From positions 1 through 22,692 of IMG/VR virus record IMGVR_UViG_3300025120_000607: a stretch of 22,692 nt of DNA; one strand, given 5' to 3'. Below the pieces are notes generated by a model. That model saw only the letters and a program-made list of their open reading frames with translations, was not told where the DNA came from and searched no databases. Both the position numbers and the translations under genes were made by a program. Positions 4,901-21,284 of this stretch are shown here, piece by piece; position 1 is the stretch's first letter; every line of letters starts with the position of its first letter. This DNA is from a virus.

Positions 4901-7900
4901 CTGTTTAAATAGACCCTCTTGTGTTAGGAATATCCCATCTATTCTTGCCAGATGAAACTCGAAATCTAATGTTGCGTCACTACCAGGTTTAGGCATATCA
5001 ACTGCTGATGAACCGCCGCCCGTGTAATTCTTCGCACCAATACTATCTACTGCTCCAAATCCTACAACACCACTATCATTCGCAACCATTGGTCTAAAGT
5101 CTAATGCGTCTCTTAATTCTATCTTACCTTTTGTTGGACTATCGAAAGATGGTATAGCGCTGTAATCAACAACACCTGAGTAACTATCTACTGAGAAGTA
5201 ATCTCCACTACCATGTGTGAAGTGTGAGAATGTGATTAACAATCTACCAGTTGGTGTCTGTGCTCCATCTTTTCTTACGATACGACCAATGTCGTAGTAA
5301 CTATCTCTCTGTCCATTGTCTAGTGTAAATCTGTCTGTGATATCAGTATGACTTGTTGTCGCTGCCGTACTGAAATCTGGTGCCATGAAGACACTCGTTA
5401 ATGCGAAGATATCACCTTTACTCATACCAATTGTTTTTTCTTCACAATTTGCTTGTGTTGATATCGCTGTTGTCGCACCTGTTACTAATGCTTTCGTTTT
5501 CTCGTTGGCGATACTTCTTGTTATCGTTGCCACGAGTTTAACTTTTGCCGTAGCGAAGTTTGCCCCTAAATCAACTTGAACTTGTCTACCATTTGGACTA
5601 CCAGTCAATGTGAACCTACTGTCACCCTCGTGGTTGTTACCTGAAAGTGATATGACATCTCCAATCGCACCGTCACTAGAACCTGCTGTCATTATCGATA
5701 ATGTGTAATCTGCCTCAGCGTGAGCATTAAATGTCTCATTCGCACCCGCACTAAATGTCGCAACACCAGAAGATGATAAAGTCTCAACGAATTGTCTTCT
5801 CACTTTATGTGAGGTATCTGTGATACCTGCGTTAGCGTCTGTCTTCAATGTCTTAATAACATTTTCTGGTAATTTATAGATGAGTGCCGTAGTATCGATA
5901 TTATTTAATCTTGTTCTTCTTCTCTGTGTTGACGCGGACGTAACTGTCGTTGCCTGTGTCTCTGTGATAGACGCCCTGGTATTGTTTGTGATACCAGAAA
6001 TAAATCTGCTGTGTTGGGTTCCTGCGTCATCTTCAAATACTATGTTGTCACCTATCTTCAATTCAGAATTAAACTTAGTATTCTTACCAAAGATAACTGT
6101 TGTTCCTGCCGCAATATCAATTGAACCAGCAAGTGTGATATTTGATTTGTCTTTCTCGTTTGCCGCACTCGTACTTAGTACCATGTCTGCCGTAAAGTTT
6201 GGCGACCCTATCATACCTATAGATTTAGTCTCAGCGAACTCAAAACTGTTTACCGCTTTCTGTGTAGATATATCACCAATTACTGTGCCACTATTTGTTG
6301 ATGTGCCACCAGTTACTGTTTCCGCATTCGCAAAACTACCCGAAACATTACTCAATACGATAGTCGTAAATATAGTTTGTTCAGCGATAAGTTGGTCATT
6401 CTCATTTGTTTTGGAAGCGTCTGTGCCATCTAATACGATAGCGTCACCCTCTTCCGTGATAAATGCGTCTGGGTCAGTTGATGAACTGGCAGATATTGCC
6501 TCTACAACACCTGTAGCCCCACTTGTTCCACCTGATACTGTCTCACCAGTGGTGAAAGAAACTGCCGTTGTTATACCAACATGTGTGAACATATCGATAT
6601 TGAATAGACCCAGTTTATAAACTGAGGTTTTGTTTGTTGATAATGAACCTGCTGTACCAGAAACATATTCGAAGTATCTAGGTTTTGCCCTACCAATCTG
6701 TTGAACATCAACGTTAGTAGTTGCGTTGTTTGTACCTCTAACTTTATTCTTATCTTTGAATAATGCTAACTCTTTGAATGCCTCTGTCTCACCTGATACT
6801 GTACCAATGTCTGGTGAACCATGTATGTTTGTGACATTAACGAAGTTACCAATAGCAAGTCTTGTTGTACTATTCTGTATAGTATCGAAGTCTCTCGCCT
6901 TCTCTATCGTAACAAATTTCTGAGACGTTGTATCTAACTCGTAACCTTTAACATATGCTTTACCTGGAGATAGACCAATTGCCAATCTTGCCTCTGAGAT
7001 AGTCGCACTCAATCCATCGTGTAAACTATCACTATCTGCCGCGAAGATACCACGATTTGATCCATTGTCTAAGTGTTCTCTAACATCTATATCGAAAGGT
7101 TGAATTACATAATCACCACTTTCCTCTGCCGTTCTTCTCGCTAGAGTTTCTTCTAAGATGTTATAGTCTGCTCTCTTTACAATTCTCTCTGTGTTACCAG
7201 TCTTTGTTCTCACCAACTCTACGAAGTTTGTATCGTCCGTATCAGTTGTAAGTTTCTTCGCAAGTGTTAATGCGATTTTAAATCTGTGTGCCCCTGGAGC
7301 ATTTATGTTTGATGAACCAGTTGCGTTATCGTTTAATGTTGTATCATCTTCTGGTGTTATGAAACTTTCTGTTACCGTAAATCCAACCCTGTAAGATGGA
7401 GTATTTGAGTATGGGTCTAGTATTAATGTTTCTTCACTATTCTTAACGAAGAATCCATTAACAAAATAGACACCTGCCTGTACGTTAACTGAACTACCTT
7501 GACCTAGAGCATTTGAACTTGTAGGTAATGATGTACCAGATGTACCAACAACCGCACTCGATGATGTGCTGTTATATGTGAAAGTTAAAGTCTCACCCTG
7601 TGTAAATCTTTTTGTTACATTATCTGTGCCTGACTTTTTGTAGATAACGTAAATCGTTGCCGCAGCCGTGGAACTTGCCTCACTCGTATTGACAACCTCT
7701 GCCTCGATACCTGAGGTGCCACCTGTTACGGTTAGACCCACCATGTTGGAAGCGGTTGTTGTAGAGTGACTTGCCAGTTTTACATATTCATACTTGATGT
7801 TAAGTGTTACCTCACCAGGTATGACCATGCTACCTTCTTTGAATACATGTTCACCAAATCGTTGAACTTGATTTTGAAGTATGGTTTGTAACTGTGTTAG

Positions 7901-9784: not shown

Positions 9785-11968
9785 TTAGCCTATTAATACC
9801 CCACTAAAGAAAGAATGTTCTACATTACCTTCGATAGTTATTGTTGCGGATGTAGCAACCTCAACGGAAGCAGTGTCATTTGCATCCATGTCAGCGAGTA
9901 CACTTCCTTTTATCGTCATGGTAGTTATACCAGTAGTATTATCTTCAAATTTGTTTCTTATTCCCCACCTATAGTTTCTATTACTCGTTAGAAGTCGCAT
10001 ATCGTAACTTGTATCGTCTGTTGAGTTGGCATCCGCGATACCTATAGTAAAAAGATATGTTCCTGTTACCGGGGCTGTGAATGTGCCATTACCTGCTAGG
10101 TCAGAATTAACATCATATTGTTCTGTAATTCCTCCAGTACCGTTAAATGCCGTATGACCATTTGCGAAATCTCCACTCGTTGATTGTACCACTCTAAAAG
10201 CAGGATTATTAGGTGTAGTTACATGACCTGCACTATCAATTTTTAAATGACTTGCCGCATTTGCTCCTAAAGCCAATTGATTGGCACCATGGTCATATTC
10301 AATATATCCAATATCGTTATCACCATCATCACCAAACATAATTCTTCCATTATTAGAATTACCAGATAAAATTGATATGCCAGAGTTAGCACTTCCTTCT
10401 ACAACTAATTCGTCTGCGTGAACAGAAACACTTGCTCCACTATCTGCTGTTTTAATATGTAATCCTGTACCTAAATCTCCTTCAGCACCAACACCTACAA
10501 TATTATTACCGCCACTAATGAATAACATGTTAGCGTTACCATTAGTCTCAACTCTAAAGTCTAAGTCATCAGAATCCTCGTTGATAACAACTGCCGTATC
10601 TGTGATTGTAATTTGGTCATCGTTAGAAGATGATTGGTCATCAATACCGGCTAAGGCTGTTATATCTGAGGTTAATGCTACGGTACCAGTTCCGTCTGGT
10701 AATGTAATTGTTCTATCAGCGGTAGGGTCAGTTACAGCGATTGTTGTTTCAAAACTGTCTGCTGTTGCTCCTTCAAATACTAATGGACTCGCACTACTTA
10801 AAATTGCTTGTGTTGCGGTTACTGTTGATGAAGATGTAATAGCCCCACTACCTACAGTACCTGCCAGTGTTACATTCGCACCAGAAAAAGTTGCGGCAGT
10901 AGTTGTGCCTGATTTGATAATTAAGTTACCACTTGTATTTGTTAAACTACCATAAGTTGTTCCGTCATCTTTTAAGAATATGTCAGCACCATTAGCGTCT
11001 AATATAATGTCTGTTGCCGCGTCTAAAGTAATTGTTGAGGCACTATCTATCTCAGCGATTATTGGTGTGGTTAATGTTTTGTTTGTTAATGTGTCTGTTG
11101 TCGCCTTACCAACTAATGTATCTGTCGCATTAGGTAACGTTATCGTTCTATCTGCTGTAGGATCCACGACAGCGATTGTTGTTTCAAAACTGTCTGCCGT
11201 ACTACCTTCAAAGATAATCGTTGGACTGTTAATAGCAGGACTTGTTAATGTCTTGTTCGTTAATGTGTCTGTTGTTGCTTTACCTACAAGTGTGTCTGTC
11301 GCATTTGGTAGAGTAATCGTTCTATCTGCTGTTGGGTCTGTAACAGCGATAGTTGTTTCGAAACTGTCTGCCGTACTACCCTCAAAAATAATTGTTGGAC
11401 TGTTAATAGCAGGACTATTAAGAGTTGGACTTGTTAATGTTTTGTTTGTTAAAGTTTCTGTTGCCGTAATCAATGATACAGTACCAGTTAGGTTAGGTAG
11501 AGTAATCGTTCTATCAGCGGTAGGGTCAGTTGCCGCAAGAGTTGTCTCAAAACTGTCTGCCGTACTACCCTCGAATACTAAGTTGGCACCAAATGATATA
11601 TCAGATAAGTTACCCGTTGTAATTACCGTACCAGTTGCGTTTGGAAAATTGATTGTTCTATCTGCGGTTGGATCCACGACACCTATAACTGTCTCAAAAC
11701 TATCATCAGTTGAACCTTCTGCCGTGAGAGTTGTAAATGCGGTCGCTTGAACTGCTGTTGGTTCAAACCTTGAGTTTGATGAGTTGAATATTAATGCGTC
11801 TCCGCTTGAAGCACCCGTTGTGATAATCTTTAATGCGGTAGTTGAACCTGCCCCTAGGGCTGTATAGATTTCGACAAAGTTATCATTAACCTTATCACCA
11901 CCTATTCTTAAGGTATCACCCGTACCGTCGTTAGCACTTGATCCTAATCCTATTGCTTGATATGCCAT
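9785..11968 (-). CDS. Repetitive tail-fibre-like protein with C1q-like tip domain (727 aa)
   Basis: The N-terminus 'MAYQAIGLGSSANDGTGDTL' ... 'GGDKVNDNFVEIY' is a common attachment-type start of marine phage fibre proteins. Five copies of the 'FEGSTADSFETT...DPTADRTITLPN' module begin near residues 82, 130, 193, 252 and 394. After the fourth is the 'IAEIDSASTITLDAATDI...' block shared with the 476-aa protein. From about residue 588 to the end (PAFRVVQSTSG ... FTAPVTGTYLFTIGI ... EHSFFSGVLIG) the sequence looks like a C1q/TNF-type jelly-roll, a usual receptor-binding tip. Host recognition is therefore the likely role. The gene sits between the 1001-aa protein and gp8 with a TATAAATA box only 6 nt before its ATG. 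It is not part of the T4 gene order and looks like an exchangeable fibre cassette with the 102-aa gene. Confidence 0.88.
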   Translation of the reverse strand: MAYQAIGLGSSANDGTGDTLRIGGDKVNDNFVEIYTALGAGSTTALKIITTGASSGDALIFNSSNSRFEPTAVQATAFTTLTAEGSTDDSFETVIGVVDPTADRTINFPNATGTVITTGNLSDISFGANLVFEGSTADSFETTLAATDPTADRTITLPNLTGTVSLITATETLTNKTLTSPTLNSPAINSPTIIFEGSTADSFETTIAVTDPTADRTITLPNATDTLVGKATTDTLTNKTLTSPAINSPTIIFEGSTADSFETTIAVVDPTADRTITLPNATDTLVGKATTDTLTNKTLTTPIIAEIDSASTITLDAATDIILDANGADIFLKDDGTTYGSLTNTSGNLIIKSGTTTAATFSGANVTLAGTVGSGAITSSSTVTATQAILSSASPLVFEGATADSFETTIAVTDPTADRTITLPDGTGTVALTSDITALAGIDDQSSSNDDQITITDTAVVINEDSDDLDFRVETNGNANMLFISGGNNIVGVGAEGDLGTGLHIKTADSGASVSVHADELVVEGSANSGISILSGNSNNGRIMFGDDGDNDIGYIEYDHGANQLALGANAASHLKIDSAGHVTTPNNPAFRVVQSTSGDFANGHTAFNGTGGITEQYDVNSDLAGNGTFTAPVTGTYLFTIGIADANSTDDTSYDMRLLTSNRNYRWGIRNKFEDNTTGITTMTIKGSVLADMDANDTASVEVATSATITIEGNVEHSFFSGVLIG
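10920..10980 (-). repeat. 61-bp identical block shared by two fibre genes, copy 2
   Basis: Identical to 946-1006, in the 727-aa fibre gene. Same orientation and reading frame, about 10 kb away, which makes it a substrate for homologous recombination between the two genes. Confidence 0.95.
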
Positions 11969-14996: not shown

Positions 14997-16844
14997 TTAA
15001 GCATAACTTGTTGATGTTGTATAACCTATACCTGAAGTTGTATCAAAGTCATCAGCCGTTACAGTTGTCGTAGTGTTTGTTTCATCAATCTCTATGACCT
15101 GATTACGAACTGGTTTGATATCTACTGAGTTTGGCACAATCGTTAATCTTACTGCCGTTGACGTAGAACCATTTATGTTTGATACGCTAGAGATATGTAA
15201 AGAGTTTAACACAATCGTTCCGTTTGTATAATCTATCGTACCCTGTGTGCTGTTTGTGTATGTTCTAACACCTGCCGTGATATAGTATAATCTCACATTA
15301 CCCTGTCCGTCTTCATCTAAGAAATATTCGTTAGTCGTATCACCAGAGACTTTGAATCCTGTTGAAACTAATATACCACCGCCACTCGCATTATGACCAC
15401 TGTGTGGATTATAAAATGCGTTGTTGAAACCAATAGTATAAGTTGTTGTACCAGTCGTTGTCGCTGTGAATGACTTATGTAATTTTACCGTGGTGATGTT
15501 TGATAGTATTGCCGTATCAACTTTGTTTATCGTCTCTATGAATTTACTGTGTCTGAACATCTGGTCGAACTGTTGTAGGTTGTTCTCGTTGTATGTTGTA
15601 ATCGTATTCTGAACTAATGACTTGATTGTATCAGGTGCCTTAGTTGTTGCTTTCTGGTCATACTTGACCACAACATTTAACTGAATGAAAGTTGTCTCTG
15701 GGTCTTCTATAACTGGTGTAATACTCGCAACGTTAAAATCTTTTAACTGTGTGATAATATCTGCCTTGTTACTCTCTGTAACTGAGACACCAGATTTTGG
15801 ATTGATAGAGATATAGACACGACCATAAACAGGTGTGTTGTTATCTTCACCACCCCATACTTGAACTGACTTAGCATTTGGAAAAATTGTCTTCACTCTC
15901 GCTTCGTAATCTTTTGTGGTTACGGCACGATTTTGTGAAGCGTACTGTCTTGGTGCGTTGAAACGAATACTGTCTGGAGTTTCTGGTTCTGACCCACCTG
16001 ATGAATTACTTGCCGTAGTGATAGTTGCGCTTGAACTACCTGCGATGTTACCAGATAGAGTGAAAGATGTAGCACCGTTACTACCCGTACCACTCGTCAC
16101 TATGTAAGATAGTGTGACGATGTTGCCTGTCGATAATGATTTACCTAAAACACCATCACCAAATATAACTTCATACTGTTCATCTTCGACACCTTCTAGG
16201 TAATAGACCGTTGATGTAGATGAAACATCTGCCAAGTCTGTTGACTTCGTGTAGGTTACCGTGGTCGTATCACTTGAACTGTTTTGAACTGTAACTTGTA
16301 ATGTTGTTGTATCCGCAAATTTATTCTTAATTAAAAATCTTTGGTCTGCGTTTGAAACGTCAACCGTATATTTGTTGTTAACTAACGTGCCCTCGTAAAC
16401 TGGTAATTCAGAAAACGTATAGACGCCTGAAACTGGATTGATTGTTGTATCATCTTTGACAACATAGTTGTAAGATGTACCATCAACTGTTGTGGTGAAA
16501 GTTGTACCTCTCGCCGCGGTAGCACTTGATCCTGATAAGTCAGAAACAACCACGTTTAATTTGGCAATTGGTGATGTCGCACTTCTTGGTGTGTAACCTA
16601 CATGTTTCGCATGTGAGACAATACTGTTTCTTATGTCCGCACTATCTAGGAACATTTCATTGGCGAGAACATTGGCATAGACCGCGTTGTAATGTGTGTT
16701 GTATGCCAGAACATCTAACAAGGTAGATATCGTTGACCCCTCAAAATCGTAATCTGTGAATTGGTCTTGTTGACGTAAAAACGTCTTCATATTATTTTTA
16801 ATATCATCAAAATCTAATGATGTTACTGAAAGTCTTTTAGCCAT
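14997..16844 (-). CDS. 6: Baseplate wedge subunit, T4 gp6-like (615 aa)
   Basis: The N-terminal ~100 residues (DFDDIKNNMKTFLRQQDQFT, FEGSTISTLLDVLAYNTHY, NEMFLDSADIRNSIVSHAKH, GYTPRSATSP) are the hallmark of T4 gp6 and its marine homologues. Around residues 293-350 'NAPRQYASQNRAVTTKDYEA' and 'VWGGEDNNTPVYGRVYI' match the baseplate-J-like part. gp6 forms the inter-wedge ring of the baseplate with gp25 and gp53. Length is close to T4 gp6 (660 aa). The ATG overlaps the gp25 stop in a TAATG junction, implying translational coupling, so the two partners are made together. The product is entirely structural. Confidence 0.95.
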   Translation of the reverse strand: MAKRLSVTSLDFDDIKNNMKTFLRQQDQFTDYDFEGSTISTLLDVLAYNTHYNAVYANVLANEMFLDSADIRNSIVSHAKHVGYTPRSATSPIAKLNVVVSDLSGSSATAARGTTFTTTVDGTSYNYVVKDDTTINPVSGVYTFSELPVYEGTLVNNKYTVDVSNADQRFLIKNKFADTTTLQVTVQNSSSDTTTVTYTKSTDLADVSSTSTVYYLEGVEDEQYEVIFGDGVLGKSLSTGNIVTLSYIVTSGTGSNGATSFTLSGNIAGSSSATITTASNSSGGSEPETPDSIRFNAPRQYASQNRAVTTKDYEARVKTIFPNAKSVQVWGGEDNNTPVYGRVYISINPKSGVSVTESNKADIITQLKDFNVASITPVIEDPETTFIQLNVVVKYDQKATTKAPDTIKSLVQNTITTYNENNLQQFDQMFRHSKFIETINKVDTAILSNITTVKLHKSFTATTTGTTTYTIGFNNAFYNPHSGHNASGGGILVSTGFKVSGDTTNEYFLDEDGQGNVRLYYITAGVRTYTNSTQGTIDYTNGTIVLNSLHISSVSNINGSTSTAVRLTIVPNSVDIKPVRNQVIEIDETNTTTTVTADDFDTTSGIGYTTSTSYA

Positions 16845-17287
16845 TATCTACTTCTTTCTAACATTGTTGTTAAGGTTATTAATTCACCTGGTACATTAAC
16901 GACATAAAAACTGATAGTCACTTCGTAACTATTTCTATCTGGCTGGGCTGAAGCGATAACTGAGACGAGTCTTGCCCTTGGCTCAAAATTTTCTATTACC
17001 TCTGATACGGCACGTTGTAATACGTTTGCCGTGATAGGGGTCATTGGTTCAAACAATAGTGCCGACACACTCGACCCAATCTCTGGGTGAAATGGTCTCT
17101 CGTAATGATTTGTTAATATCAGATTACGGACAGATTGTTTGACAGCCTCAACGTCCTTCTTCACAATCAAGTCTTTGGTTGCCACATTCTTCTCAAAAGA
17201 AAGTGCCAAGTCTGAATAAAGTCTCGTACTCCTGGCACTCGCATTGGTGCCACTTGCGTCTCTATATCCTGATTGTAGTATTGCCAT
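16844..17287 (-). CDS. 25: Baseplate wedge subunit, T4 gp25-like (147 aa)
   Basis: The GPW/gp25 family signature is clear: 'KKDVEAVKQSVRNLILTNHY' followed by 'ERPFHPEIGSSVSALLFEPM' (about residues 42-82) and 'VSEVIENFEPRARLVSVIA'. This sheath-initiator/wedge protein nucleates the tail sheath and binds gp6. Length is slightly above T4 gp25 (132 aa) because of an N-terminal tail rich in Ser/Ala/Arg. The ATG at 17285-17287 follows the PAAR stop by 17 nt. No Shine-Dalgarno sequence is visible; instead GATAAATA lies 6 nt upstream, so the message may be leaderless or translated from read-through transcripts. Confidence 0.95.
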   Translation of the reverse strand: MAILQSGYRDASGTNASARSTRLYSDLALSFEKNVATKDLIVKKDVEAVKQSVRNLILTNHYERPFHPEIGSSVSALLFEPMTPITANVLQRAVSEVIENFEPRARLVSVIASAQPDRNSYEVTISFYVVNVPGELITLTTMLERSR

Positions 17288-17304: not shown

Positions 17305-17562
17305 TTACCCAGCAAAAACGTTAGAACTCCCTGAACTTCTTGTATGAGCGCAGGTGTCAGCGTCTCCCTTGCGATTGACTGGTTTGCCATTCGCATTGAC
17401 GCTACCGCTACCATTGGCAGTTTTAACTCCAGTATGTAGTCCATGTGCCGAGACACTATCTCCATCTACGGAGATGGGTTGCCCATTCACATTGACATTA
17501 CGGCCAGAACTAACAACTCCGCCACCAGTATTACTATCACCGTTTCGATGAACACTAGGCAC
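17305..17562 (-). CDS. PAAR-repeat spike-tip protein, GTG start (85 aa)
   Basis: With a GTG start at 17560-17562 the product begins MPSVHRNGDSNTGGGV, the usual opening of phage PAAR proteins such as T4 gp5.4. The body shows the expected repeat pattern: 'VNVNGQPISVDGD' (23-35), 'SVNANGKPVNRKGDADTCAH' (54-73), then 'SSGSSNVFAG' at the C-terminus. PAAR proteins form the sharp, often metal-bound cone on the tip of the gp5-type spike and help pierce the outer membrane. I prefer this start over the TTG at 17637 because the family begins here, GAGGGCAAGGTA precedes it, and the start then overlaps the upstream 44-aa gene by 8 nt, as its neighbours do. The longer frame would add 25 residues with no family resemblance. 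Confidence 0.85.
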   Translation of the reverse strand: MPSVHRNGDSNTGGGVVSSGRNVNVNGQPISVDGDSVSAHGLHTGVKTANGSGSVNANGKPVNRKGDADTCAHTRSSGSSNVFAG

Positions 17563-17689
17563 TACCTTGCCCTCTACTTCGTGTGTGTTGTTTACGTTTC
17601 TGTTTATTCTTAGGCCTTGACCTACAACTGTTACCAATAGATGTGCGTTTCTTTGGACCCTGTCTATAATTATTATTACTTATAGCCAT
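17555..17689 (-). CDS. Small basic protein of marine T4-like phages (44 aa)
   Basis: The frame from the ATG at 17687-17689 reads MAISNNNYRQGPKKRTSIGN, then an Arg/Lys-rich tail with 'RPKNKQKRKQ', ending 'RGQGSA'. The combination 'GPKKRTSIG' plus 'RPKNK' and a terminal 'RGQG' resembles a small basic protein I remember from cyanophage and pelagiphage genomes; function unknown. Its ATG overlaps the stop of the 30-aa Cys-rich gene (TAATG), and its end overlaps the PAAR GTG start by 8 nt. The strong positive charge would suit binding to nucleic acid or an acidic protein surface, but this is speculation. It overlaps in a second frame the extension that a TTG start would give the PAAR gene. Confidence 0.65.
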   Translation of the reverse strand: MAISNNNYRQGPKKRTSIGNSCRSRPKNKQKRKQHTRSRGQGSA

Positions 17690-18120: not shown

Positions 18121-18381
18121 ATGAAACAGAAAACAACTCAAAACAACTTATTAAAATATATCAATACTCCATATGATGGACAAGATTATCAAACAGTTGC
18201 CAGTCTTATTGGTGGTAACCAGTTCGAGGCGGCTGCTAGTTTTATCGAAATGTTAGATAGTCTACCAAGAGATACTATGAAGACTATTATTGCGAAATCT
18301 TGTAAGACCATCTTTATTGAGATGTTTGATTGTGACCCATCTTTATATGCGGACGAACTAGGATTTTTTAACGTAGAATAA
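18121..18381 (+). CDS. Small early protein of unknown function (86 aa)
   Basis: The product (MKQKTTQNNLLKYINTPYDG..., ending DELGFFNVE) is acidic, soluble and mainly helical, with 'FEAAASFIEMLDSLPRDTM' and 'IIAKSCKTIFIEMFDCD' as likely helices and two Cys. No known domain is recognised. It is the first gene after early promoter P1 and is expressed through the conserved leader. In T4-like phages such first-expressed small proteins often act on the host, but nothing in the sequence shows this here. The frame is open from the ATG at 18121 directly downstream of the leader, and a second promoter follows its stop. Confidence 0.75.
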   Translation: MKQKTTQNNLLKYINTPYDGQDYQTVASLIGGNQFEAAASFIEMLDSLPRDTMKTIIAKSCKTIFIEMFDCDPSLYADELGFFNVE

Positions 18382-18394
18382 TTTAAAATAACGC

Positions 18395-18423
18395 TTGACA
18401 AATACACCATTGTGGTGTATAGT
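18395..18423 (+). promoter_or_regulatory. Strong sigma70-type early promoter P2 with spacer palindrome
   Basis: TTGACA (18395-18400, full consensus) and TATAGT (18418-18423) are separated by exactly 17 bp. The spacer is mostly a perfect palindrome, ATACACCA-TTG-TGGTGTAT (18402-18420), overlapping the first bases of the -10 box. It drives the 91-aa gene and those after it. Confidence 0.8.
18402..18420. promoter_or_regulatory. Operator-like 19-bp dyad in promoter P2
   Basis: ATACACCA and TGGTGTAT are perfect 8-nt inverted repeats around a 3-nt centre, positioned between -35 and -10. This is where a dimeric repressor, or a MerR-type activator, would control the promoter. No comparable dyad is obvious in P1. 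Confidence 0.55.
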
Positions 18424-18427
18424 ATAA

Positions 18428-18451
18428 CTATAATAACAAAGAAAGAGACTA
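18428..18451 (+). repeat. 24-bp leader repeat, copy 2
   Basis: Exact copy of 18094-18117, again with its TATAAT beginning 11 bp downstream of the start of TATAGT, and ending 4 nt before the ATG of the 91-aa gene. Confidence 0.9.
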
Positions 18452-18455
18452 TATT

Positions 18456-18731
18456 ATGAAACTTGAATTTAATAACTTACCTGATATACTTGACTTTATC
18501 AAGGACAAATCTAACAAAGACAGTTTGTTTCTGTTAGAGTGTGCGATTAGAGACGCTAAGTCTAACTCTAAATCTGAATTTAAAGTTGGAGACCATGTTC
18601 TCTTTGGAAGACCTAACGGTCGTAAGAGACCTGGTGTTATCACTACTCTTAACCCTAAGAAGGCTGTAATCAGAGACACCAACCTTGGTGGTCAGTGGAG
18701 AGTTCCTTACTCTCTAATGGAGGCAGCGTAA
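18456..18731 (+). CDS. Small early protein with SH3-like C-terminal domain (91 aa)
   Basis: The N-terminal half (LPDILDFIKDKSNKDSLFLL) is helical. Residues 42-91 (FKVGDHVLFGRPNGRKRPGV, then 'AVIRDTNLGGQWRVPYSLME') have the alternating V-G-D/R-P-G-V-I/W-x-V-P pattern of a small SH3-like or KOW-like beta barrel, found in many small marine T4-like phage proteins; such barrels often bind nucleic acid or proteins. The exact role is unknown. It is expressed from P2 through the repeat leader. Its stop overlaps the next gene's ATG (TAATG at 18729-18733), and an ATGGAGGC stretch near its end serves as that gene's ribosome site. Confidence 0.8.
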   Translation: MKLEFNNLPDILDFIKDKSNKDSLFLLECAIRDAKSNSKSEFKVGDHVLFGRPNGRKRPGVITTLNPKKAVIRDTNLGGQWRVPYSLMEAA

Positions 18732-18976
18732 TGAAAAAAATATTATACGATTTTATGTTTGACAATCAGATACCTTTCACTTACCCAATGTATAGTGAAA
18801 TGTCATTGATGAAAAAAATTGATATCAAGTATCTGAAATCTGTTAAAGAGTTTATCAAAAAGAATAGACTACGATTAAGAGTTAGGTATCGTGGATCATC
18901 TACGGATACTTATAGACGTGACCCTAGTTATGTCTTAATGAATAATGCTCAAACTTTTGCCTTATATGAAAGGTAA
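18731..18976 (+). CDS. Small basic early protein (81 aa)
   Basis: The product starts MKKILYDFMFDNQIPFTYPM and continues with 'KKIDIKYLKSVKEFIKKNRL' and 'RLRVRYRGSSTDTYRRDPSY'. The '(K)YLKSVxxFIKKNxLxLRVRYRG' pattern recurs in small proteins of T4-like marine phages in my memory; function unknown, and the Arg/Lys-rich helix-strand could bind nucleic acid. I use the ATG at 18731 rather than the in-frame one at 18695, because it has GGAGG 7 nt upstream and forms the TAATG overlap with the preceding gene, whereas the earlier start would overlap by 37 nt and add 12 unrelated residues. Confidence 0.75.
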   Translation: MKKILYDFMFDNQIPFTYPMYSEMSLMKKIDIKYLKSVKEFIKKNRLRLRVRYRGSSTDTYRRDPSYVLMNNAQTFALYER

Positions 18977-19118
18977 TATATTTTGGATTATATTATTTGT
19001 TGCGGCACTCTTAGTGCCGTTTTTTATTGGCCAATATATTGATGGTGAATTATTTAATTCTGATTTAGAACTGAAAGAGTTTTGGAAATTTGGTGTGAGG
19101 GAGTGTTCTCAATGTTAG
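18966..19118 (+). CDS. Putative single-span membrane peptide (50 aa) crossing a terminator
   Basis: The frame from the ATG at 18966 reads MKGNIFWIILFVAALLVPFF followed by a charged C-terminal part (ELKEFWKFGVRECSQC). Residues 4-22 form one clear membrane segment. It overlaps the preceding gene by 11 nt and the following one by 7 nt, as in a compact phage operon. Against it: no Shine-Dalgarno sequence is seen, and a canonical intrinsic terminator (19003-19025) lies within codons 13-20, so few transcripts may cover the whole frame. It may be a real gene expressed only on read-through or antitermination, or a chance hydrophobic frame in T-rich DNA. Confidence 0.45.
   Translation: MKGNIFWIILFVAALLVPFFIGQYIDGELFNSDLELKEFWKFGVRECSQC
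19003..19025 (+). terminator. Canonical rho-independent terminator of the early operon
   Basis: A perfect 7-bp GC-rich stem CGGCACT/AGTGCCG with a 3-nt loop is followed immediately by six T and ATT on the plus strand. It starts 27 nt after the stop of the 81-aa gene. On the minus strand no T-run follows, so it works rightward only. It lies inside the 50-aa frame. Confidence 0.8.
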
Positions 19119-19255
19119 AGAAGATTTTGAAGTGTAAGATGAAGTATGATAAACTTGCCATGAGAGAACCAAGGAATGGTCGACAAGTGTATGACCGTAT
19201 CGTCTGGGAAAGACTTCGAAAAATCTTAATTCAACGATACGGTCGTTTTGATTAG
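19112..19255 (+). CDS. Small basic protein of unknown function (47 aa)
   Basis: The frame reads MLEKILKCKMKYDKLAMREP, then 'GRQVYDRIVWERLRKILIQR' and ends YGRFD. It is strongly basic and helical, with one Cys. GAGGGAGTG 8-16 nt upstream is a good ribosome site, and the start overlaps the 50-aa frame by 7 nt. It lies beyond the terminator at 19003-19025, so expression needs read-through. Its stop overlaps the stop of the convergent 63-aa minus-strand gene by 4 nt. A stem-loop (19193-19244) is embedded in its last codons. No family is recognised. Confidence 0.55.
   Translation: MLEKILKCKMKYDKLAMREPRNGRQVYDRIVWERLRKILIQRYGRFD
19193..19250 (+). terminator. Possible convergent terminator/stem-loop
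   Basis: GACCGTATCGT (19193-19203) and ACGATACGGTC (19234-19244) are perfect 11-nt inverted repeats. The 30-nt interior has an additional small AAGA/TCTT stem, and GTTTTGATT follows. It sits where the plus-strand and minus-strand operons meet. The long loop makes it an unusual terminator; it may be coincidental within coding sequence. Confidence 0.3.
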
Positions 19256-19443
19256 CCTGACACGTCCTCAGTTGGTACTGGGATTTCTATCTCAGGTTCA
19301 CTCTCAAAAGTAATCTTTGGTACTGGTACTTCGTCAATCATCTTCGCAGCCTCTTCACCGTATTGGTGACCAAGCCAGAAAGCGAATATAACTACCACTA
19401 CATAGAAAAATTTTTTCCAGCGATTTTTTGTTATGTCTCTCAT
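19252..19443 (-). CDS. Small single-span membrane protein (63 aa)
   Basis: A basic N-terminus (MRDITKNRWKK) is followed by one transmembrane helix (about residues 12-25, FFYVVVVIFAFWLG) and an acidic, Pro-rich tail with 'PVPKITFESEPEIEIPVPTE'. The charge pattern predicts N-terminus in the cytoplasm and the Pro/Glu tail in the periplasm. The start has an AGGAAA site. It lies 8 nt after the 53-aa membrane gene, so the two are co-expressed. The combination of small membrane proteins near the late genes could be a lysis pair (holin/spanin-like), but no diagnostic motif, such as a lipobox, is present. Confidence 0.65.
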   Translation of the reverse strand: MRDITKNRWKKFFYVVVVIFAFWLGHQYGEEAAKMIDEVPVPKITFESEPEIEIPVPTEDVSG

Positions 19444-19451
19444 TGTGTTTC

Positions 19452-19613
19452 CTATTTGCCGTTATGTCTCTGCCATACGTTGACAGCGATCCAAGCAATT
19501 AGACCCCACTTGACTACTGCCATTACTGGTAGTATGCCTGTAAAGATTGATACCGCTAATAAAATTAGTCCGTAATCTTTCCATGCGCCTAAATCTTTGA
19601 TCCATTTATCCAT
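19452..19613 (-). CDS. Small two-span membrane protein, holin-like candidate (53 aa)
   Basis: The frame begins MDKWIKDLGAWKDYGLILLA and has two hydrophobic stretches (about residues 14-31 and 34-47) with a very short turn between, then a polar end (WQRHNGK). An AGGAG ribosome site lies just upstream of the ATG at 19611-19613. The size and two-helix hairpin topology would fit a small holin or another membrane-active phage protein, but holins have no reliable sequence signature, so this remains a candidate. It is the gene after the porin-like gene and before the 63-aa membrane protein, and probably shares their late transcript. Confidence 0.65.
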   Translation of the reverse strand: MDKWIKDLGAWKDYGLILLAVSIFTGILPVMAVVKWGLIAWIAVNVWQRHNGK

Positions 19614-19638: not shown

Positions 19639-20496
19639 TTAGAACGTAAATTTCGCACCTGCGCTATAATGTTGTAGGTCTGTGCCAGTATCTAAATCAT
19701 CTTGTTGCATCTCAGCATAGACGGTTAGACTTTCTGTCATATCATGGCTCAACCCATAAGTCATATACGTTCCTGTACCTTCTTTATCTCCGTAACCAAC
19801 TGTCAATGCTTTCCATCCAATCGTTGCTTCCATACCAGTTAGATCCGTTGCCGCATCCTTCACAGTATAAGTTGAAGCGATTGTTAAATCACCTACAGTT
19901 GTTGAAGCGCCGCCGCCCCAATAAGAGATATCGTTAACCACGTCATCAGAATATCCTACTGATACATCAATGCCACTCATACTATGAGAGAGCGTACCCT
20001 CCCACATATCAATACCATCTTGTCCAGAAGAACCATCAACCATAGCCATGACACTTAGAGAGCCATTGTCTAATTTGATTGTGTTTGATGACCTTGTACC
20101 ATAACTGAATACAGCGTTGCCTCCGTACACTTCAAAGTTTCCAGTTTTAGAAACCCATGAGTGTGCCTGACGACCAGCAGTAATCGAAACACCATTATTT
20201 TCTAAACCAACATATGCCAGTCTGGAATCTAAAGTGTCTGATCCACTATCGTCAACATCAACGCCTACCTCTAACTTGGCGATACCCGATATGGAACTTC
20301 CTTCATCAAAACTTTCGATAACGTCTATACCTAGAATTGATCCGTTGTTCTCTAACTTATCGTGTGCCACGCCAGAACTGTTCTCGTTATGTGACCATTT
20401 ATAGTTAAAGGTACCATACGGTGTGATATCCGCGGCCATAGCCTGATAGGCAAATAGCGACATGAATACCGCCGTAATAGTAATTAATCTTAACAT
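19639..20496 (-). CDS. Porin-like outer-membrane beta-barrel protein with signal peptide (285 aa)
   Basis: The N-terminus has a classical secretion signal (MLRLITITAVFMSLFAYQAMA, cleavage probable after AMA at 21) and the mature part starts ADITPYGTFNYKW, like Gram-negative general porins (x-x-YGxxxxxx). Further porin-like elements are 'GSILGIDVIESFDEGSSISG' (~53-72), 'AKLEVGVD', 'LDSRLAYVGLENNGVSITAG' then 'RQAHSW' (~89-114; compare R-A-x-VGL-x-G...GRQ in porins), alternating beta-strand patterns throughout, and the C-terminal Phe (SAGAKFTF) needed for BAM recognition. It would form a channel in the host outer membrane. It is shorter than most host porins (~300-380 aa), perhaps with trimmed loops. 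The start is supported by AGGAGA and there is a late promoter 66 nt upstream. The role in infection (altered uptake, receptor masking, lysis) is not shown by the sequence. Confidence 0.82.
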   Translation of the reverse strand: MLRLITITAVFMSLFAYQAMAADITPYGTFNYKWSHNENSSGVAHDKLENNGSILGIDVIESFDEGSSISGIAKLEVGVDVDDSGSDTLDSRLAYVGLENNGVSITAGRQAHSWVSKTGNFEVYGGNAVFSYGTRSSNTIKLDNGSLSVMAMVDGSSGQDGIDMWEGTLSHSMSGIDVSVGYSDDVVNDISYWGGGASTTVGDLTIASTYTVKDAATDLTGMEATIGWKALTVGYGDKEGTGTYMTYGLSHDMTESLTVYAEMQQDDLDTGTDLQHYSAGAKFTF

Positions 20497-20525: not shown

Positions 20526-20540
20526 CACCCAGAAAGGGTG
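20526..20540 (-). promoter_or_regulatory. Short hairpin in the porin leader
   Basis: CACCC/GGGTG stem with a 5-nt loop. On the minus strand it is followed by TTGAGTTTAAAATT, a weak terminator-like tail. It lies between the late promoter at 20563 and the porin ATG, so it may terminate upstream transcripts, protect the mRNA or modulate expression. Confidence 0.35.
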
Positions 20541-20561: not shown

Positions 20562-21284
20562 TTATTTATATGTTTCGTCATATGTCTCCTTGTAGATGTT
20601 ATCAACATCTTCCTGGTTCTCTAACACATATGCTGAAATATGAGTGTATCCGTTCTTTTTTGCCCATAGTATCCTACGACCACCAGCCTGCCACTTACGA
20701 TACTTCCCGTTCATTCTACGGACCATGATGGGGTGTAACATACCATTCTTGTCCATATCGTCAAATAACTTCTCGTAGTTTATACCTCTAACATTGGCAT
20801 AACTCTCCCAGTTACCCGTGACGTTATCCCACTTATAGGTGAGTTCGTCTAGTGGTATGAGTTGATGGTGTTGTTGGTGTGTAATCTCTTTCGCTATTAA
20901 TTCCTTCACTTCGTCATTCATATATTTTTCCCAGTATATCTCACTATTTGTAAATTCTAAGACCTCTATAAATTCATTATGACCAGGCACACAGTAACAA
21001 TCGATGTGCGTGTAACCATGTTCTTTCGCATACCATAGTCTCTGATTGCCTACCGCCACCTTATCTTCGTTCCAAGTATTGATTATAATTGGATGGAGCA
21101 TTCCGTTCTTGTTTATATCTTTGTATAGGGAGTAGAGACGGAATCGTTGTTCTCGTCTTTCTTTACCACCGAGGAATACTTTACGTTGGTCTATACTATC
21201 ACCGAGACTATCAATCTCTCTTACTGTATGATACTGTGGAAATTCTATGTGGTTAGCAGATAACGTTTTTCTGGAAAGCAGCAT
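20562..21284 (-). CDS. Protein with two tandem ParB-like (Spo0J/Srx-fold) domains (240 aa)
   Basis: Two similar units are seen: residues 56-98 (DINKNGMLHPIIIN ... VAVGNQRLWYAKEHGYTHID) and 176-219 (DMDKNGMLHPIMVR ... KWQAGGRRILWAKKNGYTHI). Each has the ParB N-domain pattern: NGMLHPI (as in 'xxGxxxPixV'), then GxxR-x-x-x-AK-x-x-G (as in 'GERRxxAAK'). ParB-like folds bind or hydrolyse CTP/ATP and act in DNA segregation, as nucleases or as regulators; several phages carry stand-alone versions of unknown role. No helix-turn-helix DNA-binding domain is apparent, so plasmid-type segregation is unlikely. The start ATG at 21282-21284 has GGAG upstream. The gene is preceded by a 63-nt gap with no recognisable promoter. 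Confidence 0.78.
   Translation of the reverse strand: MLLSRKTLSANHIEFPQYHTVREIDSLGDSIDQRKVFLGGKERREQRFRLYSLYKDINKNGMLHPIIINTWNEDKVAVGNQRLWYAKEHGYTHIDCYCVPGHNEFIEVLEFTNSEIYWEKYMNDEVKELIAKEITHQQHHQLIPLDELTYKWDNVTGNWESYANVRGINYEKLFDDMDKNGMLHPIMVRRMNGKYRKWQAGGRRILWAKKNGYTHISAYVLENQEDVDNIYKETYDETYK
20563..20570 (-). promoter_or_regulatory. T4-type late promoter TATAAATA for the porin-like gene
   Basis: TATAAATA on the minus strand overlaps the last codons of the upstream ParB-like gene and lies 66 nt upstream of the porin ATG. This suggests that the porin and the two small membrane genes are late genes. Confidence 0.65.

Follow-up and report, generated by a model that had tools for sequence, protein, structure and literature searches.

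The NmpC/Lc-type porins of lambdoid prophages belong to the OmpC family; carried by temperate phages, they alter the surface of the lysogen, and they resemble the gene described here in that a phage carries an outer-membrane porin. In the sea, viruses whose hosts are presumed to be Bacteroidetes encode an OmpL porin alongside amtB and glnK (PMC8115048), a comparable case of a marine phage porin amid nutrient-acquisition genes. Pelagimyophages themselves possess another outer-membrane pore, the CsgG/CsgF curli pore, a protein unrelated to the porin that has been proposed to function in macromolecule uptake, fibres or lysis timing (PMC7029224, PMC9004378). The closest counterpart, however, is gp042 of the cultured relative HTVC008M (YP_007517908.1), which is 75% identical over 285 aa, occupies the same position among the same neighbours, and is already annotated as an ‘outer membrane porin’, although the open papers searched do not discuss it. 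Thus, the porin gene itself is not new. No description of a pelagimyophage porin was found in open PMC papers, among which the original HTVC008M paper did not turn up. What is new here, as read from sequence comparison, is that the porin is optional and swapped with a 27-aa ORF at a single slot.

The window, meaning the whole 22,692-nucleotide stretch of the IMG/VR virus record IMGVR_UViG_3300025120_000607, belongs to an HTVC008M-type pelagimyophage. Its baseplate genes gp6, gp25 and gp8 and the adjoining genes match Pelagibacter phage HTVC008M, gp6 being 73% identical, and the order ParB-porin-smA-smB-gp25-gp6 is common to both; the host is presumed from HTVC008M. Unlike the NmpC/Lc genes, the porin of this locus (Table 1) is a Porin_4 protein, carried by a T4-like phage and preceded by a putative late-promoter box. 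Rather than the temperate carrier and lysogen expression of the lambdoid case, the window, itself a fragment, presents a T4-like baseplate module, an HTVC008M-type backbone and a putative late box. The OmpL case (PMC8115048) differs in the protein, in its link to ammonium transport, and in the viruses and hosts concerned.

Table 1. Features of the porin locus in window coordinates.
Feature	Position	Strand	Remarks
Porin CDS	19639..20496	-	285 aa; Porin_4 family; predicted 16-stranded barrel
Predicted Sec signal peptide, residues 1-21	20434..20496	-	Cleavage between AMA and A; read from sequence; model helix 2-18; same pattern in relatives
L3-like loop, residues 111-136	20089..20166	-	AlphaFold model; preceded by conserved GRQ motif (108-110)
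Putative late-promoter box TATAAATA	20563..20570	-	66 bp upstream of porin start; overlaps stop of ParB-like gene
5'-UTR hairpin CACCC-TTTCT-GGGTG	20526..20540	-	Between promoter box and Shine-Dalgarno sequence
Shine-Dalgarno AAGGAGAA	20500..20507	-	Read from sequence; conserved in relatives
ParB-like protein	20562..21284	-	Upstream neighbour of porin
smA53, 53-aa membrane protein	19452..19613	-	Next gene after porin; retained with or without porin
smB63, 63-aa single-TM protein	19252..19443	-	Non-significant resemblance to Rz-like spanins (E=0.36)
gp25 baseplate wedge	16844..17287	-	Locus marker
gp6 baseplate wedge	14997..16844	-	Backbone marker for allele tree

The porin ORF is intact, running from an ATG start to a stop codon on the minus strand. 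The encoded N-terminus is predicted to be of the Sec type (MLRLITITAVFMSLFAYQAMA, with cleavage before the next A), and the protein ends in KFTF, a terminal F that is shared by all 78 of the 78 full-length relatives extracted; such a Sec signal combined with a C-terminal aromatic BAM signal is that of a general Gram-negative porin. The Pfam family Porin_4 (PF13609) covers residues 11 to 281 with 53.7 bits, the cut-off being 27 (E=3.7e-14), and is matched by 20 of 22 diverse relatives. In Pfam, the OmpC/OmpF-type family Porin_1 gave no match to the window porin and matched a single one of the 22 relatives (E=0.035). NCBIfam and PHROGs hold no model for the porin, a PDB sequence search returned spurious antibody matches only, and a plasmid search for relatives found none. 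The mature protein of 264 aa is acidic (pI 4.1), with 38 D+E versus 12 K+R.

Structural modeling with AlphaFold on a 45-sequence alignment (pLDDT 85.9, pTM 0.76), which supersedes a shallower model from 26 aligned relatives (pLDDT 71), yields a signal helix followed by 17 strand segments. Since both termini should be periplasmic, segments 44-50 and 54-62 were counted as a single bulged strand, giving 16. The longest loop of the model, 26 residues, lies between strands 5 and 6, where general porins have L3, and the other outer loops are short (3-11 residues). The best Foldseek matches are all 16-stranded general porins, namely OmpU and OmpT (Vibrio cholerae), OmpF, Omp35, Omp32 and PorB, with TM values of about 0.7-0.78 (some 0.74 for the OmpU/OmpF type) at ∼15% identity; it is from these known porins, and not from the model itself, that barrel closure and an inward L3 are taken. 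The phage porin would share with them the fold, strand count, L3-like loop and C-terminal Phe, whereas it is shorter, has short outer loops and is phage-borne. The first-pass annotation had claimed a complete porin-like gene with a signal peptide, barrel-type strands and a C-terminal Phe, and the ORF, its two termini, the Porin_4 match and the predicted OmpU/OmpF-type fold bear this out; general porins, rather than tail or adhesin proteins, head the Foldseek matches. These data support the view that this T4-like marine myovirus carries a genuine outer-membrane porin and that the gene product is neither a tail protein nor an adhesin.

The phage late promoter box that had also been claimed upstream of the gene is present as TATAAATA on the minus strand. 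The window holds six copies, all on the coding strand and upstream of gene starts, a raw count modestly above chance (2.05 expected; six reached in 3 of 100 shuffles). In the HTVC008M genome, the total count shows no excess over chance, but the placement does: 18 of 21 boxes have an annotated start on their own strand no more than 110 nt downstream, where 7-14% would be expected (P about 3e-13 even with the coding strand alone). The genes so preceded include gp25, tail sheath, portal, csgF and the porin gp042 (box 100 nt upstream), as well as a minus-strand operon beginning with the DNA end protector; the annotation of this genome also lists a late sigma factor and a putative transcription factor for late promoters. 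The porin gene thus has the layout of a T4-type late unit, with TATAAATA shortly upstream on the coding strand, and it is from this box only that we infer its late expression. In HTVC008M, the box at 7549-7556 stands 13 nt before csgF, which suggests that the curli-pore operon is likewise expressed late.

Support for the leader hairpin is moderate, because one of its pairs is altered on both sides (T-A to A-T) in 7 relatives. The hairpin is absent at porin-less loci, has no match in Rfam, and may stabilise the mRNA. In many relatives, a second, A/T-rich hairpin (TGATTATAGATATAATCA) follows it.

Relatives of the porin are encoded on at least 149 IMG/VR contigs according to an alignment-based scan and on 102 according to an earlier one, the best 80 of 149 and the best 80 of 102 being retained. 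Across 111 porin loci, 61 had a recognisable gp5 and 63 a recognisable gp25, many of these contigs being too short to reach one or the other. Porins down to 50% identity hold the same genomic slot between gp5 and gp25, including those of a second lineage (50-56% identical) in which the small membrane genes are mostly absent. Porin identity follows backbone identity (rho 0.69, 946 pairs), yet some pairs combine 95% identity in gp6 with only 62% in the porin; alleles have therefore probably been exchanged between similar backbones. Two conserved-peptide pattern scans, which reach fairly close relatives only, found no porin relatives in 84,980 bacterial and archaeal species genomes.

The reading that we favour, tentatively and at just short of an even chance, is a general-diffusion porin, made late and placed in the host outer membrane, that would sustain or raise small-solute permeability in an oligotrophic cell. 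Transcription would proceed late from the TATAAATA box, the product would be exported by Sec, and the host BAM machinery would assemble it into the host outer membrane, so that permeability to small solutes would be kept or raised during virion building, with host envelope synthesis halted. The gene is an accessory gene of HTVC008M-type pelagimyophages, residing in a recombination slot between gp5 and gp25. Several features count in favour: the intact porin architecture with predicted export and assembly marks, purifying selection over the mature protein (pN/pS 0.18 among close relatives), the short surface loops and L3-like loop of the model, as in a plain pore, and the putative late box together with the slot shared by distant porins. 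Among the three functions offered by the first-pass annotation, nutrient influx fits best, although the benefit of the pore is presumed.

Genomic neighborhoods lend this diffusion pore modest further support. A PstS-like phosphate-binding protein adjoins the porin in two contigs (L063:1678-2607 and L245:3874-4812) and lies in the same gp5-gp25 interval of phage Mosig (MT647606 93031-93978), in which no porin was detected; a glutamine synthetase lies just upstream of the porin in a third contig (L069:44-1072). However, such neighbours are rare among the 111 porin loci (PstS in 2, GlnA in 1), which counts against a nutrient reading. Also counting against it, a published model of oligotroph uptake assumes diffusion-limited uptake, not porin abundance (PMC8168909), and the two conserved-peptide scans brought up no host homologue that would indicate what is supplemented. 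A dedicated phosphate pore was rejected: the linkage to PstS is real but rare, and the acidic mature protein does not suggest one. Mosig is recorded on strain HTCC1062, as is HTVC008M, and gave no porin match; the porin is therefore not essential for infecting that strain.

A second function offered at first pass, receptor replacement to block superinfection, remains a live rival, one that we regard as somewhat unlikely. By analogy with the lambdoid prophage porins, a late porin would displace or dilute the porin that serves as receptor on the host, keeping progeny and competitors from adsorbing to the doomed cell or its debris. The late box is consistent with this, as are the accessory status of the porin, its swapping among close relatives and the exchange of alleles between similar backbones (gp6 95%, porin 62%), and very short outer loops, as modelled, would give few binding sites. 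However, in a lytic cycle the protection gained from changing the surface late is brief, and conservation within the protein is on average highest in the predicted outer loops (0.84 without L3, against 0.76 in strands and 0.63 in periplasmic turns; P=8e-5 for loops versus turns on the predicted topology). L7 is invariant across 45 sequences, and neither it nor L8 differs in amino-acid sequence among 24 close relatives (pN=0). Porins usually vary in their outer loops, which face pressure from phages and predators; on its modelled topology, the phage porin reverses this pattern, which argues against an adsorption arms race over the loops.

Close relatives that lack the porin retain the ParB-like gene and the small membrane genes, and most retain TATAAATA. 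In the porin's place they carry a hydrophobic ORF of 27 codons (MLEVVLMAYAITIIGGLIIQSTGLSSI and variants) with its own start, found at L136:5236-5319, in L119 and L146, and at smA53-anchored loci. Of 68 such anchored loci, among which near-identical contigs are not independent, 56 carry the porin and 12 the micro-ORF, with none carrying both or neither; anchoring instead on gp6, and requiring 4.5 kb or more of upstream sequence, gave the porin in 13 of 22 contigs. On the gp6 tree, the micro-ORF state requires at least 3 changes. HTVC008M and L136 share 95% and 91% DNA identity in the two flanks, and the segment exchanged between them begins just past the box and stops just short of the smA Shine-Dalgarno sequence. 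Because relatives hold either the porin or the micro-ORF in the same slot, the porin looks like an optional, swappable envelope module.

The micro-ORF is too short for most gene finders, and its codon differences are too few for a clear synonymous excess, leaving its coding status unproven. Its interpretation as the remnant of a decayed gene was rejected, as the exact length and hydrophobic pattern are retained in three lineages. An unlikely but coherent extension is a two-state envelope locus, in which one conserved late promoter would serve either the porin or the 27-aa peptide; the two would be exchanged by recombination and would meet one late envelope need (permeability, exclusion or lysis timing) in different ways.

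The third function suggested at first pass, envelope weakening for lysis with the neighbouring small membrane proteins, would make these genes a late lysis cassette, and is weakened by the present comparison to something distinctly improbable. The two small membrane genes do adjoin the porin, a 27-aa hydrophobic peptide replaces it in relatives, and smB63 bears a resemblance to spanins that is non-significant (E=0.36). Yet the porin and the small genes separate in both directions: smA and smB remain where the porin is absent, and the second lineage has the porin without them. In addition, the endolysins of HTVC008M are located elsewhere, and a predicted 16-strand barrel with an L3-like loop is no obvious lytic agent. 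That the protein is instead associated with the virion or baseplate and merely has a barrel fold is very unlikely; it is encoded among baseplate genes under the same late-promoter motif, but it has a predicted signal peptide, a C-terminal Phe and a full porin fold in the model, and it is absent from related phages that retain the neighbouring baseplate genes. Functionless host DNA, recently captured by chance, is hardly credible, for although Porin_4 is a bacterial family and some relatives lack the gene, it is contradicted by the selection and synteny data, by relatives on at least 149 contigs, by divergence to 50% under purifying selection, and by a phage promoter box with its own conserved leader hairpin.

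The surface ocean is dominated by SAR11 and its phages, and if the diffusion-pore reading holds, these phages may set host outer-membrane permeability late in infection. A porin that is optional, swapped and constrained on its predicted outer face provides a natural presence/absence comparison for nutrient influx, exclusion and lysis control, one such pair, both recorded on HTCC1062, being HTVC008M, which has the porin, and Mosig, in which none was found and PstS lies in that interval.

Beyond the porin slot, the window contains further features. A PAAR-motif protein, possibly a tail-spike tip, is encoded beside gp25 (17305-17637, minus strand). A cluster of small plus-strand ORFs (18121-19255) lies between two minus-strand gene groups; HTVC008M gp046-047 are here also on the strand opposite the late genes. 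Two genes (324-1754 and 9785-11968, minus strand) encode tail-fibre-like proteins with repeated FEGSTADSFETT..DPTADRTITLPNATGT units common to both, the second ending in a C1q-like C-terminus that falls just under the Pfam cut-off.
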